DNA of 36,217 nucleotides. Origin: Aeromicrobium sp. GTDB lineage: Bacteria; Actinomycetota; Actinomycetes; Propionibacteriales; Nocardioidaceae. Below, one piece after another: positions 26,753-32,024 of the stretch. Position 1 is the first letter of the stretch. Each line of letters opens with the position of its first letter. The DNA lies in contig JAOPXL010000033.1 in assembly GCA_025965175.1 (NCBI GenBank), positions 1-36,217 of the forward strand. Direction: 5' to 3'. Position numbers and translations under genes: made by a program. The notes under the pieces were generated by a model that worked only from the letters and a program-made list of their open reading frames with translations, did no database searches and had not been told where the DNA came from.

Positions 26753-27862
26753 TCACCGTCGCGAGGCGCCGGCCCGGACCCGGTCGACGACGGCCCACAG
26801 CGTCCGGTCCAGCACGGCCGCCGACAGGTCCTGCATGTCGTACCAGCGCAGGACCAGCCAGTCACCGACCGGCGCGGCGGTGGCCCGCAGCCACTCGTCG
26901 AGGCGTTCGTAGGTCTCCCCCGAGACGAACAGACCGGTCAGGGCGATGAACGCCAGCGAGCTCCATGGCAGGGCGAGCAGCACGGCCAGCACGATGTTGA
27001 CCGCGATCGTCAGGAACAGCACGATCCTGCGGGTGATCGGGTTGAGCAGCAGCGGACCGAAGAACAGCTGGGTCAGCAGCACGACGTACGTCAGGAGCGC
27101 CAGCACGACCGAGCTGCTGGACACCGCGTCCGACAGCCCCGGATAGGGCCGGAACTCGGGCAGCTGCATCGTGGAGTAGAGCGCGGTCCCCCGCTGCCAG
27201 ACACCCTGCGAGACCTTGTCGAGGCCGCCGGCGGTGAACAGCAGGATGGTCTGCGTGATCAGGCCGATCAGTCCCACGTGGTGCAGTCCCGCCGACAGCC
27301 AGGGTGGGAAGACGCGCTCGCCGTCCCACGCCTGACGCATCGCGCTGACTGATCCGTCCGTGGCCGCAACCCGACGCTCACGGCGGCGCGCGTCGAGCGA
27401 CCAGAAGTCGGCCGTCTGCATCAGCAGCAGCCACAGCAGGGTGATGCGCAGCAGGTTGTCGCCTTCATCGCCGACGACGGGGTTCTGCGCGACGATCGCG
27501 ATGAAGCCGACCAGGGTCACGATGTTGGCGGCCTTGGTGTGCCAGCCGAGCGCCATGGCGAGCGCGGCCGCGATCGTGACGGCGTAGAAAGCCGTCAGGA
27601 TGTCGCCGCTGACGCCGTCGAGCAGGGCGAGCTCGGGGAACTGGCTCAGCTCGCGGACAGGCTGCGCCCAGATCGAGGCCTGCCCAACCCACACGTCGCG
27701 GCTGGAGAAGTTCGCGACGAGCAGCCCGAGCACCGACAACGCCGTGCCGATGCGGCACAGCGCGGCGCCGTGGATCGCGCGCGGCTCCGCCAGCAGCCAC
27801 TCCTCCGCCGCGACGACCCACCGCCGGGGCGCTTCGATCAGTCGATGTCCGAGCTCGATCAC
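26753..27862 (-). CDS. HTTM (vitamin-K-dependent gamma-carboxylase-like) domain membrane protein, copy B
   Basis: 369 aa multi-TM; LVANFSSRDVWVGQASIWAQPV, AANIVTLVGFIAIVAQNPVVGDEGDNLLRITLLWLLLMQTADFWSLDARR, GGLDKVSQGVWQRGTALYSTMQLPEF. Confidence 0.82.
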   Translation of the reverse strand: MIELGHRLIEAPRRWVVAAEEWLLAEPRAIHGAALCRIGTALSVLGLLVANFSSRDVWVGQASIWAQPVRELSQFPELALLDGVSGDILTAFYAVTIAAALAMALGWHTKAANIVTLVGFIAIVAQNPVVGDEGDNLLRITLLWLLLMQTADFWSLDARRRERRVAATDGSVSAMRQAWDGERVFPPWLSAGLHHVGLIGLITQTILLFTAGGLDKVSQGVWQRGTALYSTMQLPEFRPYPGLSDAVSSSSVVLALLTYVVLLTQLFFGPLLLNPITRRIVLFLTIAVNIVLAVLLALPWSSLAFIALTGLFVSGETYERLDEWLRATAAPVGDWLVLRWYDMQDLSAAVLDRTLWAVVDRVRAGASRR

Positions 27863-27866
27863 TCGC

Positions 27867-28622
27867 TCAGTCCTTCACATAGTCGTCGAATGCGGACTGC
27901 GCCTCGAAGGACGCCCGGTAGCCGAGGCGGTAGCCGAAGGTGAACCATCGGAAGTCCTTGTCGCGCAGCGAGCTCGTCGCCACCTCGGAGACCGGGGGCA
28001 CGGTGCGCCGACCGACCCGGTACTGCACCGCGATGACACGCCCCTCGACGCGCGCCTGAGCGTACATCGAGGCGAACCTCGTCGCCATCAGGTCATACGT
28101 CATGTAGGTCTCGACCGCGGCACGCCGGTCCGCGCCCGCGGCGAGCAGCCGACCGCGCAGCAGCGTGGTCGGGTCCTTGGTGTAGGTCTCGCGCACCAGC
28201 GCGCGCTGCTTGGCGTTGAGCCCGAACATCGCGCCGTTGAGGTTGGTCGCGAGCTTGCGGGCCATCAGGTGCGTGCGGGCGGGATCAAGGTCGTGGCGGA
28301 GAGCATCGTTCTCGGCCGCCGTGATGTCGACCCACGCGGTCACCCGGTTCTTTCCCGCGTCGTCGTCCCTGACCTGCGCCCGGACGAGGAACGACTCGTC
28401 CACGAACTGCGCATTGGGGGCCAGTCCGCTCCACGACTGCTCGAAGTAGGGGTTGACGTAGGTCGCCAGGGCGCGACCACCGATGACCTGGCGCACCGGG
28501 CTCTGCGGCGACAGCCAGAACGCCAGGACCACCGAGTGTCCGACCGCGAGGACCGCGAGGGCCACGACGATGCGCCGCTGCCACGGCCGGGGAGCAGGCA
28601 TGTCCGTGCTCGTCACCGACAT
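27867..28622 (-). CDS. DUF5819-like protein, copy B
   Basis: Likely start at internal ATG (MSVTSTDMPAP) of ORF 27867..28691; one N-terminal TM, VNPYFEQSWSGLAPNAQ, VTAWVDITAAE; 4 nt before the HTTM gene. Confidence 0.72.
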   Translation of the reverse strand: MSVTSTDMPAPRPWQRRIVVALAVLAVGHSVVLAFWLSPQSPVRQVIGGRALATYVNPYFEQSWSGLAPNAQFVDESFLVRAQVRDDDAGKNRVTAWVDITAAENDALRHDLDPARTHLMARKLATNLNGAMFGLNAKQRALVRETYTKDPTTLLRGRLLAAGADRRAAVETYMTYDLMATRFASMYAQARVEGRVIAVQYRVGRRTVPPVSEVATSSLRDKDFRWFTFGYRLGYRASFEAQSAFDDYVKD

Positions 28623-28662
28623 GGCCTCCATCCTAGGTGTGTTCGTTTCCCGGGTCCGGGAA

Positions 28663-28702
28663 CGCCGCTGCCGGTGACCTGGTCGGGTCACCGGCAGCGG
28701 CG
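28663..28702 (-). terminator. Strong hairpin (candidate terminator) after the LPDTG gene
   Basis: 17-bp perfect stem cgccgctgccggtgacc/ggtcaccggcagcggcg with 6-nt loop, between the LPDTG gene stop and the DUF5819-B start; no clear U tract. Confidence 0.6.
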
Positions 28703-28718
28703 GTCGAGCTGGGGTCGA

Positions 28719-30029
28719 TCAGGATGCGAGCATCTGGCGACGCTTCTCGTTGAGGAGAACGCCTCCACCGAACAGCACCAGGGCCAGGCCCAGGAACAGG
28801 AACGGCAGCAGGTTGCTCGGCGCACCCGTGTCGGGCAGCGCCTGCGTCACGTCGGCGTCAGCCTGCGCGTCGGCGTCAGCAGCAGCGTCGGCGTTGGCAT
28901 CGGCGTCGGCCGCCGCGTCAGCGTTGGCATCCGCGTTCGTGTCGGTGTCCGCGTCGGCCGCCGCGTCGGCGTTGGCGTCGGCAGCAGCGTTGGCGTCGGC
29001 GTCGTCACTAGCGACCACACCGTTCGGGCCACACGCGGAACGTGCCAGTGCCAGGGTCGCGGTCTCGCCGACCACGTTGAGGTCCAGTGCGGTGACCTCG
29101 ACCGAACCATCGGCGTTGGTGACCTGCTTGTTGACCGTGCCGTCCAGGACAGGCACGAGCGCGTCGCCAACCTGGTCCAGGACCGGTCCGAGCTGCGCGA
29201 GAACGCCGTCGACCAGTGTCTGCTGCAGGGTGGGCACCAGGTCTGCGAGTCCGCCGAGGGCGCCGCCCAGGCTGTCGTTCAGCGTGTCCTCGACACCCGT
29301 CAGCAGACCGGTGACGATCTGCTTGGGAGCGACGGAGCCGACCAGCTTCGCGTTCGCGGAGGTGTTCAAGTTCACCGGGACGGTGATGACGTTGCCCGGC
29401 GCGAGCTCGACCAGGAGGTCGATAGCGCCAATCTTCGAGCTCATCGTGCCGTCGCTGTTGCACTCGCTGCTGACAGCACCGATCCGCGCCGAGACCGGCA
29501 CGGCGGCCTGGACCGCGGCGAGCAGCGGCGAGAGGGCCGCGTCCTGGATGCCCGACAGCAGCGGGGTCAGGAGTGCCTCGAAGGCGGGACGAAGAACCAG
29601 CGGCTCGAGCCCGGCGACCACCTTGTCGAGGATGGTGCCGGTGTTGATCGCGCTGATCTCGTCGCCGACGTTCGACACGTCGATCGTCGTGAGGGCCATG
29701 TTCGTGCTCTCAACGCTCGCGCTCGCCTCAGAGGTGCCCTTCGTGCCGTCCAGACCCGTCGACGCGGTCTGGTTGATCAGACCGACGGCCGGTCCGGAGA
29801 CGCTCAGGCCGGTGCCACACGTGCCCGAGCCCGGGGTGGCGGGACCTGTGGACTCGGCGCGGCACTCGTCACTGTCGACGATGCCGGTCAGTCCCGACGC
29901 CGTGACGGCGCTGGAGTTGGACTGCGCGACGATCGCGTCGGCACCGTTGGCGGAGAACGACAGGCCAGCAGTGACGATCAACGTCGCCATTCCTACCGCT
30001 AGTGAGTTTTTGGCAAGCTTGTTCTTCAC
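28719..30029 (-). CDS. LPXTG-anchored (LPDTG) surface protein with Ala/Asp-rich stalk
   Basis: 436 aa; GTG start with aggag RBS, signal peptide MKNKLAKNSLAVGMATLIVTAGLSFSANGA, C-terminal LPDTG (28824-28838) + hydrophobic segment + NEKRRQMLAS. Confidence 0.88.
   Translation of the reverse strand: MKNKLAKNSLAVGMATLIVTAGLSFSANGADAIVAQSNSSAVTASGLTGIVDSDECRAESTGPATPGSGTCGTGLSVSGPAVGLINQTASTGLDGTKGTSEASASVESTNMALTTIDVSNVGDEISAINTGTILDKVVAGLEPLVLRPAFEALLTPLLSGIQDAALSPLLAAVQAAVPVSARIGAVSSECNSDGTMSSKIGAIDLLVELAPGNVITVPVNLNTSANAKLVGSVAPKQIVTGLLTGVEDTLNDSLGGALGGLADLVPTLQQTLVDGVLAQLGPVLDQVGDALVPVLDGTVNKQVTNADGSVEVTALDLNVVGETATLALARSACGPNGVVASDDADANAAADANADAAADADTDTNADANADAAADADANADAAADADAQADADVTQALPDTGAPSNLLPFLFLGLALVLFGGGVLLNEKRRQMLAS
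28850..29006 (-). repeat. Low-complexity Asp-Ala(-Asn) coding repeat
   Basis: DDADANAAADANADAAADADTDTNADANADAAADADANADAAADADAQADAD encoded by gcgtcggc/gttggc-type units. Confidence 0.85.
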
Positions 30030-30106
30030 AGGGAGGGCTCCTGGTGTTGTTCGTGCATCGAAAGGTCTGGGAATCCAGCCGGGGAAGTTGCTGAAAAGTT
30101 ACTGAA

Positions 30107-30126
30107 GTCCCGGTGCGAACCGGGAC
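30107..30126 (-). promoter_or_regulatory. Inverted repeat in the leader of the LPDTG gene
   Basis: Perfect gtcccggt-gcga-accgggac hairpin; further palindromes cctat-gga-atagg (30133-30145) and ctac-t-gtag (30156-30164) nearby. Confidence 0.45.
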
Positions 30127-30184
30127 AAAATGCCTATGGAATAGGTCACATCGCCCTACTGTAGCGGATTTTTGCGACCAAGAG

Positions 30185-31114
30185 TTACAGGGTGTCCACC
30201 GTCACGCGACGGCGCGATCTGACCCACGCTTCCGCGCGGAGCCAGGACCGATCGCTCACCAGGATCATGTCGACAGCGATCATGACGAGCGAGAAGTACA
30301 GGATCCCCATGAAGATCCCGATGCCCAGGTGCATCCCGGTGATCAGGATCAGGGCCACGAACCGGCTGGGCCGGTAGAGCAGCAGCAGCGGGAAGAACAG
30401 CTGCACGACGATCGCGGTGTAGGTCGCCCCCGAGATGACAGGACCGAAGGCGTACACGGGCTGCAGCAGGTCGTGCCACGGCGAGTACGCATCGGTCTGC
30501 AGCGGGTAGTAGACCGCCGTGCCGTCCTTCCAGACCGCGCTCTGCAGCTTCCAGAACGCGGAGCCGACGTAGACCATGACGACCTGGTGGATGATCAGGA
30601 CCGTGGCGAGGTTGTGCAGCGTCGACGAGGCCCACTCCGGCACGAGCGGGCGGATCTCGCCGCGCCGCTTCCCCAGACGCGCGTCAACGGACCAGCGGCG
30701 ACCCGAGTCGGTGAAGCACAGGTAGAGCAGCACCATGCGGAGCACCGCGTCGCCGCCCGAGCCGACGAACGGGCTCGAGACGTACAACGACATCCACAGG
30801 AACAGCGTGACCAGCGCCGAGCCACGTGTCCGGTAGCCGATCATCAGCAGCACGCCGAAGACGATCGTGCCGAGGTAGGCGAGATCGAACGCCACTCCCC
30901 CGAGCTGCTCGAACAACCCGAGGAACGACGGCCAGGACTTGGCGTCCCGGACCGGCTGGGTCCACACGGCCCCGTCGCCCCAGGTGTAGTGCCGGTCGAA
31001 CCAGTTGACCAGCAGCTGGCTGGCGACGATGAACCCGAGGATCATCCGCGTGACGGCCAGGCCGTACGTCGAGTGCTTCTCGCGGGTCAGCCAGCCCATC
31101 GCCAGGGCGATCAT
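30185..31114 (-). CDS. HTTM (vitamin-K-dependent gamma-carboxylase-like) domain membrane protein, copy A
   Basis: 309 aa multi-TM; VNWFDRHYTWGDGAVWTQPV, SSPFVGSGGDAVLRMVLLYLCFTDSGRRWSVDAR, SAFWKLQSAVWKDGTAVYYPLQ; ATGA overlap with DUF5819-A. Confidence 0.83.
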   Translation of the reverse strand: MIALAMGWLTREKHSTYGLAVTRMILGFIVASQLLVNWFDRHYTWGDGAVWTQPVRDAKSWPSFLGLFEQLGGVAFDLAYLGTIVFGVLLMIGYRTRGSALVTLFLWMSLYVSSPFVGSGGDAVLRMVLLYLCFTDSGRRWSVDARLGKRRGEIRPLVPEWASSTLHNLATVLIIHQVVMVYVGSAFWKLQSAVWKDGTAVYYPLQTDAYSPWHDLLQPVYAFGPVISGATYTAIVVQLFFPLLLLYRPSRFVALILITGMHLGIGIFMGILYFSLVMIAVDMILVSDRSWLRAEAWVRSRRRVTVDTL

Positions 31115-31857
31115 CGGTGCCTCCGGTCGAACGAGGCGACCGTCCGGCGTTCCGCCGCGGTGCCCGGAGTAGGACGGCGCCAGCCGCTGTCGCGCTCGGT
31201 CGCCTCCGGTCGCGAGGCAGCACGCTCGGCGGCGGTCCCCGACCGTGACTCGTACGGCACGACGGGGGCGCTGCGGAGGCGGTAGCGGACGGCAGTGAGC
31301 TCACGGTCGGGCCAGCGGGACAGCAGGACGTCGGTCGCGAGCCGCGCAGTCGCCTGCTCGTAGAGCAGGAACGTGCTGACGCGGCCCGGGCTCGCGCCGC
31401 CGGCCAGCAGGTCGGCCCGCAGCTGCGCCCACCTGGGCGGGCTGTCCTGCGGCGTCTCATCGGCGGTCTCGCGCTCGGCGGTGCCCAGGCCGCGGTACGC
31501 CTGGCCGAGCGGGCCGTACAGCTTGCTGGTCACGTAGCCGGCCCGGCCACCCACCAGACGGTGCTGGACCAGGTCGAGCTCGACCGCGGTCCAGTCGACC
31601 CACGCCGTCGTCTTCACCGAGCCGTCCGCGGCGGTGTAGGTCCCCTGGAACCAAACCTCGCGGTCCTCGGCGACCGGGGACGGCGCGAACAGACGCCAGT
31701 TCTGGGTGAAGTACGGCGCGAGGTAGCTCGTGCGGGGCGCAGCGGCGTCGCTGTAGCGGTTGGGCGGCAGCGCTGCCAGGGTGACTGCGACGAGCTGGAA
31801 ACCGGCCATGATGACGGCCACGGCGATGAACAGCGATCGCAGCGAGACCCGGGGCAC
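31111..31857 (-). CDS. DUF5819-like protein, copy A
   Basis: 248 aa; N-terminal TM, LAPYFTQNWRLFAPSPVAEDREVWFQG, TTAWVDWTAVELDLVQHRL. Confidence 0.78.
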   Translation of the reverse strand: MPRVSLRSLFIAVAVIMAGFQLVAVTLAALPPNRYSDAAAPRTSYLAPYFTQNWRLFAPSPVAEDREVWFQGTYTAADGSVKTTAWVDWTAVELDLVQHRLVGGRAGYVTSKLYGPLGQAYRGLGTAERETADETPQDSPPRWAQLRADLLAGGASPGRVSTFLLYEQATARLATDVLLSRWPDRELTAVRYRLRSAPVVPYESRSGTAAERAASRPEATERDSGWRRPTPGTAAERRTVASFDRRHR

Positions 31858-31934: not shown

Positions 31935-31951
31935 GTCCTGCTACCTACCGG

Positions 31952-32024
31952 TGGAGCATAGGAGATTCGAACTCCTGACCTCTTCCATGCCATGGAAGCG
32001 CGCTACCAACTGCGCCAATGCCCC
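31952..32024 (-). tRNA. tRNA-Ala (anticodon GGC)
   Basis: 73 nt GGGGCATTGGCGCAGTTGGTAGCGCGCTTCCATGGCATGGAAGAGGTCAGGAGTTCGAATCTCCTATGCTCCA; acceptor GGGGCAT/ATGCTCC, anticodon loop ATGGCAT. Confidence 0.93.

Follow-up and report, generated by a model that had tools for sequence, protein, structure and literature searches.

We analysed a 36,217-nucleotide contig of Aeromicrobium sp. (JAOPXL010000033.1; hereafter the window), which carries on its minus strand two pairs of genes from DUF5819 and HTTM, families without a defined function, on either side of a gene for a putative wall-anchored surface protein. The gene order is DUF5819-A (31111..31857), HTTM-A (30185..31114), the LPDTG surface protein (28719..30029), DUF5819-B (27867..28691) and HTTM-B (26753..27862), and all five are open reading frames with a strong codon-position guanine-cytosine (GC) bias. 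The four pair proteins score above the curated Pfam cut-offs: DUF5819-A and DUF5819-B match PF19136 with 93.2 bits (E 3.6e-26) and 114.6 bits (E 9.3e-33) against a cut-off of 27.1, and HTTM-A and HTTM-B match PF05090 with 43.8 bits (E 3.2e-11) and 46.9 bits (E 3.4e-12) against 27.7. The members of a pair are tightly spaced, with a 4-nucleotide ATGA overlap in A (31114-31111) and a gap of 4 nucleotides in B (27866-27863). An earlier note, made from the letters of this DNA, had described this order, these families and both junctions, and all of it is borne out. DUF5819-A is predicted to consist of an N-terminal membrane helix and an extracytoplasmic domain, and HTTM-A is a multi-helix membrane protein of 309 amino acids to whose fold family HTTM-B also belongs. 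DUF5819-B, in which the W..FAP motif is degenerate, probably starts at ATG 28631 or 28622 instead of GTG 28691. A literature search found no mention of DUF5819.

The two families go together across genomes. A first survey used profiles from the window proteins on 60 fetched loci of the genus, of Streptomyces-like genomes and of other relatives, plus the window, with genes called by codon-position GC; an HTTM gene directly followed 86 of the 87 DUF5819 genes. A contig scan with an HTTM alignment placed DUF5819 directly before HTTM at 80 of 80 named loci (Microbacterium, Leucobacter, Brevibacterium, Mycetocola, Gulosibacter, Galactobacter, Microlunatus, Auraticoccus and others), a biased sample retrieved through HTTM proteins of the DUF5819-partnered type. 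DUF5819 and HTTM are obligate partners, as the two-component system proposed in the earlier note supposed. The complete arrangement, with a client surface protein between pairs A and B, occurs at 25 loci, one per genome and the window included, among the 49 genomes of the genus, a recurrence that argues against chance. At one Streptomyces-type locus read gene by gene (L099, from the pairs at L099-L109), HTTM overlaps a downstream RNA-methyltransferase-like gene.

Clients, identified by their sorting-signal pattern, are linked to the pairs well beyond the window. Within the genus, a gene whose product ends in a sorting signal lies directly upstream of 40 of the 41 pairs that are not of A type (single or B-type), and at 25 loci (19 LPXTG, 6 LPXAG) the same client directly follows an A pair, two more A pairs lying at contig ends. 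An LPXTG-type gene is also found directly upstream of the pair at 16 of 20 distinct loci in Microbacteriaceae and at 3/3 in a Propionibacteriaceae-like family (f76). Over the named set, which overlaps the sets already counted, the client is directly upstream at 56 of 80 loci, and the remainder includes two clients with a C-terminal membrane helix and orphan pairs of Brevibacterium. As a background, a relaxed sorting-signal pattern picks out 15 of the 656 remaining genes at these loci and one of them is a convincing LPXTG protein by eye, and genomes have 0-6 PF00746 matches each. An unlinked gene with a choice-of-anchor G domain, a common client ectodomain, was present in 7 of the 11 orphan-pair genomes tested. 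In a phylum sample, 3 of the 4 genomes that have this domain also have DUF5819 (hypergeometric p 3e-4, a value that treats two draws of 397 genomes as identical). The names used for families f8 and f76 were assigned through shared loci and named records, the client C-terminus being the same in L148 and L240, in L167 and L217, and in L168 and L231. Altogether, pairs and surface proteins are strongly associated, and repeatedly so in several families; the survey that the earlier note had named as a refuting test therefore did not refute its idea. Linkage by chance, or by hitchhiking at a chromosomal site that is itself conserved, would agree with the conserved flanks of the locus within the genus. 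Elsewhere, however, the association is met again at other sites and, in Microbacteriaceae and Propionibacteriaceae, with client types that are unrelated, and we find this explanation barely credible.

The client in the window, an alpha client of the short type, is a 436-residue protein with a signal peptide, an ectodomain, an Asp/Ala-rich low-complexity stalk (about residues 342-392; 28854..29006) and a C-terminal sorting signal made of LPDTG, a hydrophobic helix and KRR (28722..28838), an architecture read by eye from the translation. Its anchor falls just below the curated cut-offs (TIGR01167, 15.8 against 15.9 bits; PF00746, 16.4 against 20, E 0.0089), and its orthologues carry LPX(T/A)G at all 25 loci with the complete arrangement. 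LPXAG takes the place of LPXTG in the clients of L067, L071, L075, L076, L077 and L079, which include the closest relatives of the window locus. The choice-of-anchor G domain NF033766 is the commonest client ectodomain beside DUF5819-HTTM; it finds no match in the window client and does match several orthologues at the same locus. The N-domain of the window client is distinct from the choice-of-anchor G domain that other alpha clients carry, and in profile comparison it is mainly the C-terminal region that the window client has in common with the alpha clients matching NF033766. By profile-profile comparison, the beta clients (L089-L092), the gamma clients (L060, L062, L074) and those of L151 and L157 are unrelated to choice-of-anchor G. 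The survey supports the proposal of the earlier note that the enclosed LPDTG protein is a candidate client. No single client defines the pair, which accompanies several sequence-unrelated ectodomains. Even at the locus with both pairs, the N-domain alternates between choice-of-anchor G and the short type, with at least five label changes forced by well-supported branches, a count that may drop below five once four rows labelled "other", which proved to be choice-of-anchor G-like, are merged. The N-domain is swapped in these sequences while the signal peptide, membrane-proximal region, stalk and sorting signal stay, a pattern suggesting that the client N-domain is not read by the pair. Aspartate, considered as a shared modification site, is disfavoured, as some stalks consist of NA- or QA-repeats.

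The interval between the client and DUF5819-B contains, right behind the client stop codon, a 17-base-pair RNA hairpin (28663..28702, minus strand) with a folding z-score of -5.9. For 53 of 60 clients, the 70 bases that follow the stop codon fold with z < -2.5; among other genes that have a neighbor on the same strand within 250 bases, 16 of 149 do so (Fisher p 2e-27; z-scores are from mononucleotide shuffles, and related genomes are not independent). We infer that the hairpin acts as an attenuator or terminator that holds client expression above that of the enzyme genes.

We then compared HTTM with proteins of known structure. Searched against the PDB, the HTTM profile has a sole match, the vitamin-K-dependent gamma-carboxylase GGCX (E 2.2e-20). 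The HTTM-A model (mean predicted local distance difference test score, pLDDT, 96.2) is matched to GGCX by Foldseek with E 2.4e-7 and a template modeling score of 0.68. What HTTM-A matches is the N-terminal membrane part of GGCX only (chain residues 22-297 of about 696). The aligned residues include Lys189 (Lys218 in GGCX), Trp195 (Trp223), Gly198 (Gly226), Tyr182 (Tyr211), His262 (His287) and Phe274 (Phe299), of which His262 and Phe274 correspond in the profile alignment to residues of the GGCX quinone pocket. Lys218 is the catalytic base of GGCX (PMC12589487). Judged by profile, modeled fold and this lysine, HTTM and GGCX are homologous, and the relationship to GGCX that the earlier note had stated holds. 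DUF5819-A, which has an intact PYFxQNWRLFAPxP motif at residues 48-61, gave a good AlphaFold2 model (mean pLDDT 91.4, predicted template modeling score 0.77), and no PDB fold matched it at E <= 0.001. GGCX also has a fused propeptide-binding domain, whereas HTTM-A lacks one and has the separate partner DUF5819 instead, and the client of the bacterial pair is a wall protein.

The closest characterised bacterial arrangement is SdpC-SdpA-SdpB, which the earlier note did not mention. HTTM is homologous to SdpB over its whole length (hhalign 99.9%, E 1e-37), and SdpAB, like DUF5819-HTTM, combines a membrane-anchored small partner with a secreted client encoded alongside. The actinobacterial sdp loci that we read, L119 and L120-L124 among them, have the order client, SdpA, SdpB, which is that of client, DUF5819 and HTTM. 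On the other hand, HTTM matches the SdpB family TIGR04033 (E 1.5e-18) with 67.4 and 22.2 bits against a cut-off of 178.4, SdpB lacks His167-Asn168 and Arg41 of HTTM, and no window protein matches the SdpA family TIGR04034 at E <= 1. Short DUF5819-like proteins (173-187 amino acids) with a QNWxLFAPDP-type motif occur in distant relatives in the same phylum (L116-L118), adjoining HTTM in L116 and L118, and could be a bridge between DUF5819 and SdpA. The search found no literature treating both HTTM and SdpB. A further likeness, by description and not by sequence comparison, is to crdG of the linaridin corynaridin cluster, where an HTTM protein and a partner enzyme also act on a linked peptide and Thr/Ser dehydration is suspected (PMC9927463); there the partner is an alpha/beta hydrolase and the client a small bacteriocin peptide. 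In outline, DUF5819-HTTM would resemble GGCX and SdpAB as an HTTM membrane protein with a client-binding part, set on a secreted client. By the tests made it is a member of neither type of system, since it has no His160 equivalent and no fused propeptide-binding domain, and it stays below the SdpB cut-off and has no match to the SdpA and SdpC-toxin families.

This likeness raises the possibility, which we consider on the unlikely side, that the pair is an SdpAB-like processing or export factor that helps to cleave, release or fold the C-terminal hydrophobic segment of the client, with HTTM as a scaffold and no quinone chemistry. Such a role would fit the full-length alignment with SdpB, the shared gene order and the signal peptide and C-terminal hydrophobic segment that the clients have in common with SdpC and YitM (PMC6818787). 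However, homology of DUF5819 to SdpA is not established, the profile-profile match being weak (12.6% identity, E 0.002, 48 columns), and Lys189, Trp195, His262 and Phe274 are near-absolutely conserved outside clade B, beyond what a scaffold would appear to need. The studied SdpA/SdpB-type systems make toxins (PMC6818787), and the LPXTG protein could by the same token be the toxin precursor of a bacteriocin-type system. The clients of Bacillus subtilis SdpA-SdpB (SdpC) and of the paralogue YitPOM are toxins, but those of DUF5819-HTTM are LPXTG surface proteins, mostly long and wall-anchored and many with choice-of-anchor G domains. No SdpA match was found in the window, nor any match to the SdpC-toxin NCBIfam in the window client or the 20 other clients scanned (an SdpI-type immunity gene was not searched for), and we hold a bacteriocin system to be very improbable.

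The two pairs at the locus are not equivalent. A and B are 29.5% identical in HTTM and 33.6% in DUF5819, and the two trees, which mainly agree, place them in old separate clades, with B nearest to the beta pairs; in both trees the clades of pairs track client type. The A and B pairs are, on these trees, ancient paralogues. A recent tandem duplication is rejected by the trees of both families, and the pairs, which the earlier note called duplicated, are not a simple duplication. The catalytic lysine position is conserved throughout: Lys189 is kept in 26/26 A copies, 26/27 B copies and 103/103 external copies (a set from Microbacteriaceae, Brevibacterium and Propionibacteriaceae). HTTM-A has Lys189, Trp195, Gly198, His262 and Phe274 intact, and HTTM-B retains the Lys/Trp/Gly motif. 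His262 and Phe274 are present without exception in the 26 A and 103 external copies, whereas the 27 B copies have Asn (24) or Ser (3) at the first position and Ser (19), Ala (7) or Thr (1) at the second. In DUF5819, Phe57 is lost in 27/27 B copies, and Ala58 in most, against retention in 26/26 A and 103/103 external copies; the motif of DUF5819-B in the window reads QSWSGLAP. The joint loss of His262 and Phe274 in HTTM and of Phe57 and Ala58 in DUF5819 is confined to clade B and suggests that the four positions are in contact or serve a common task. As conserved residues have gone from HTTM and DUF5819 at once, B looks like a pseudo-enzyme pair, and the idea of two equal catalytic pairs becomes unlikely.

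Both pairs could nonetheless be active, dividing the regions of the client between them or acting on separate clients, with B as a re-tuned enzyme. The B genes are intact at all 25 loci with both pairs, and Lys189 (26/27), Trp195 and Gly198 are kept. But the HTTM residues that B has lost are near-invariant in every other clade, SdpB included, and the DUF5819-B motif residues are lost too; we think this reading distinctly unlikely.

In the view that we favor, DUF5819-HTTM serves as an extracytoplasmic maturation module dedicated to wall-anchored surface proteins. The client would be made in excess, the hairpin 3' of its gene damping expression of the enzyme genes. HTTM would be the membrane-embedded catalytic subunit, with the GGCX fold and its catalytic lysine, and its chemistry would probably be menaquinol-linked base chemistry or a derivative. 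DUF5819 would be the exterior partner, with a Trp-x-x-Phe-Ala-Pro loop that likely docks at the pocket of HTTM to present the client. The genus has an additional, intact pair (A) upstream of the client, and B has the usual downstream position; given the motif residues lost from both B proteins, catalysis probably falls to A, with B as an adaptor or regulator. Of this scheme, the sequences show the pairing, the client linkage, the hairpin, the fold and the residues kept and lost, whereas catalysis, quinone use, docking, attenuation and the division of labor are inferred.

Several observations weigh against this scheme. The histidine that positions the Glu substrate in GGCX, His160, is not conserved, HTTM-A having Gly121 there, beside Asp122; the catalytic-residue comparison with GGCX thus holds for Lys218 but not for this histidine. 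We found no modification-site feature common to all clients, whose stalks vary (DA, NA, QA and TD repeats). Streptomyces-type pairs have an LPXTG-type gene directly upstream in 0/15 cases, most Brevibacterium pairs lack a linked client, and two Leucobacter loci encode as client a choice-of-anchor G protein that has CWB2-like repeats (by appearance) and no LPXTG. Related genomes, moreover, are not independent events. On balance, a client-linked DUF5819-HTTM module taken alone is highly probable. We regard the whole statement, a client-dedicated maturation module with GGCX-like HTTM catalysis, hairpin damping, a catalytic A and an accessory B, as evenly poised, and its most specific form, a menaquinol-driven lysine-base modification of wall-anchored surface proteins by HTTM-DUF5819 with pair B as pseudo-enzyme adaptor, as tentative and rather unlikely.

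Further features concern the site itself. Upstream of pair A lies a tRNA-Ala gene (31950-32024), and ARAGORN also called a tRNA-Ile at 29614-29691 on the plus strand, within the minus-strand client gene, a call that we discount as probably spurious. The beta client and its pair (L089-L092) stand beside the same flanking genes as the locus with pairs A and B, and L064 has both sets adjacent, which gives the site the look of a hotspot or of a set of alternative cassettes. PADLOC found no match to a defense system. A replacement of sortase by the pairs was rejected: sortases are present in 45 of the 49 genomes of the genus, two of them in the genome of the window, neither on this contig.

In many actinobacteria a gene for a wall-anchored surface protein is directly followed by a DUF5819-HTTM pair, the membrane half of which has the fold and the catalytic lysine of the human vitamin-K-dependent carboxylase. 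These results suggest a so far unstudied system for the maturation or modification of surface proteins. An entire group of HTTM proteins in bacteria would gain a likely job, the maturing of a neighboring secreted protein, and a large set of natural clients can be named for HTTM proteins with a small membrane partner. The losses in clade B mark DUF5819 Phe57-Ala58 and HTTM His262-Phe274 as candidate contact residues, and what an HTTM protein with a small membrane partner does to its client becomes experimentally approachable.

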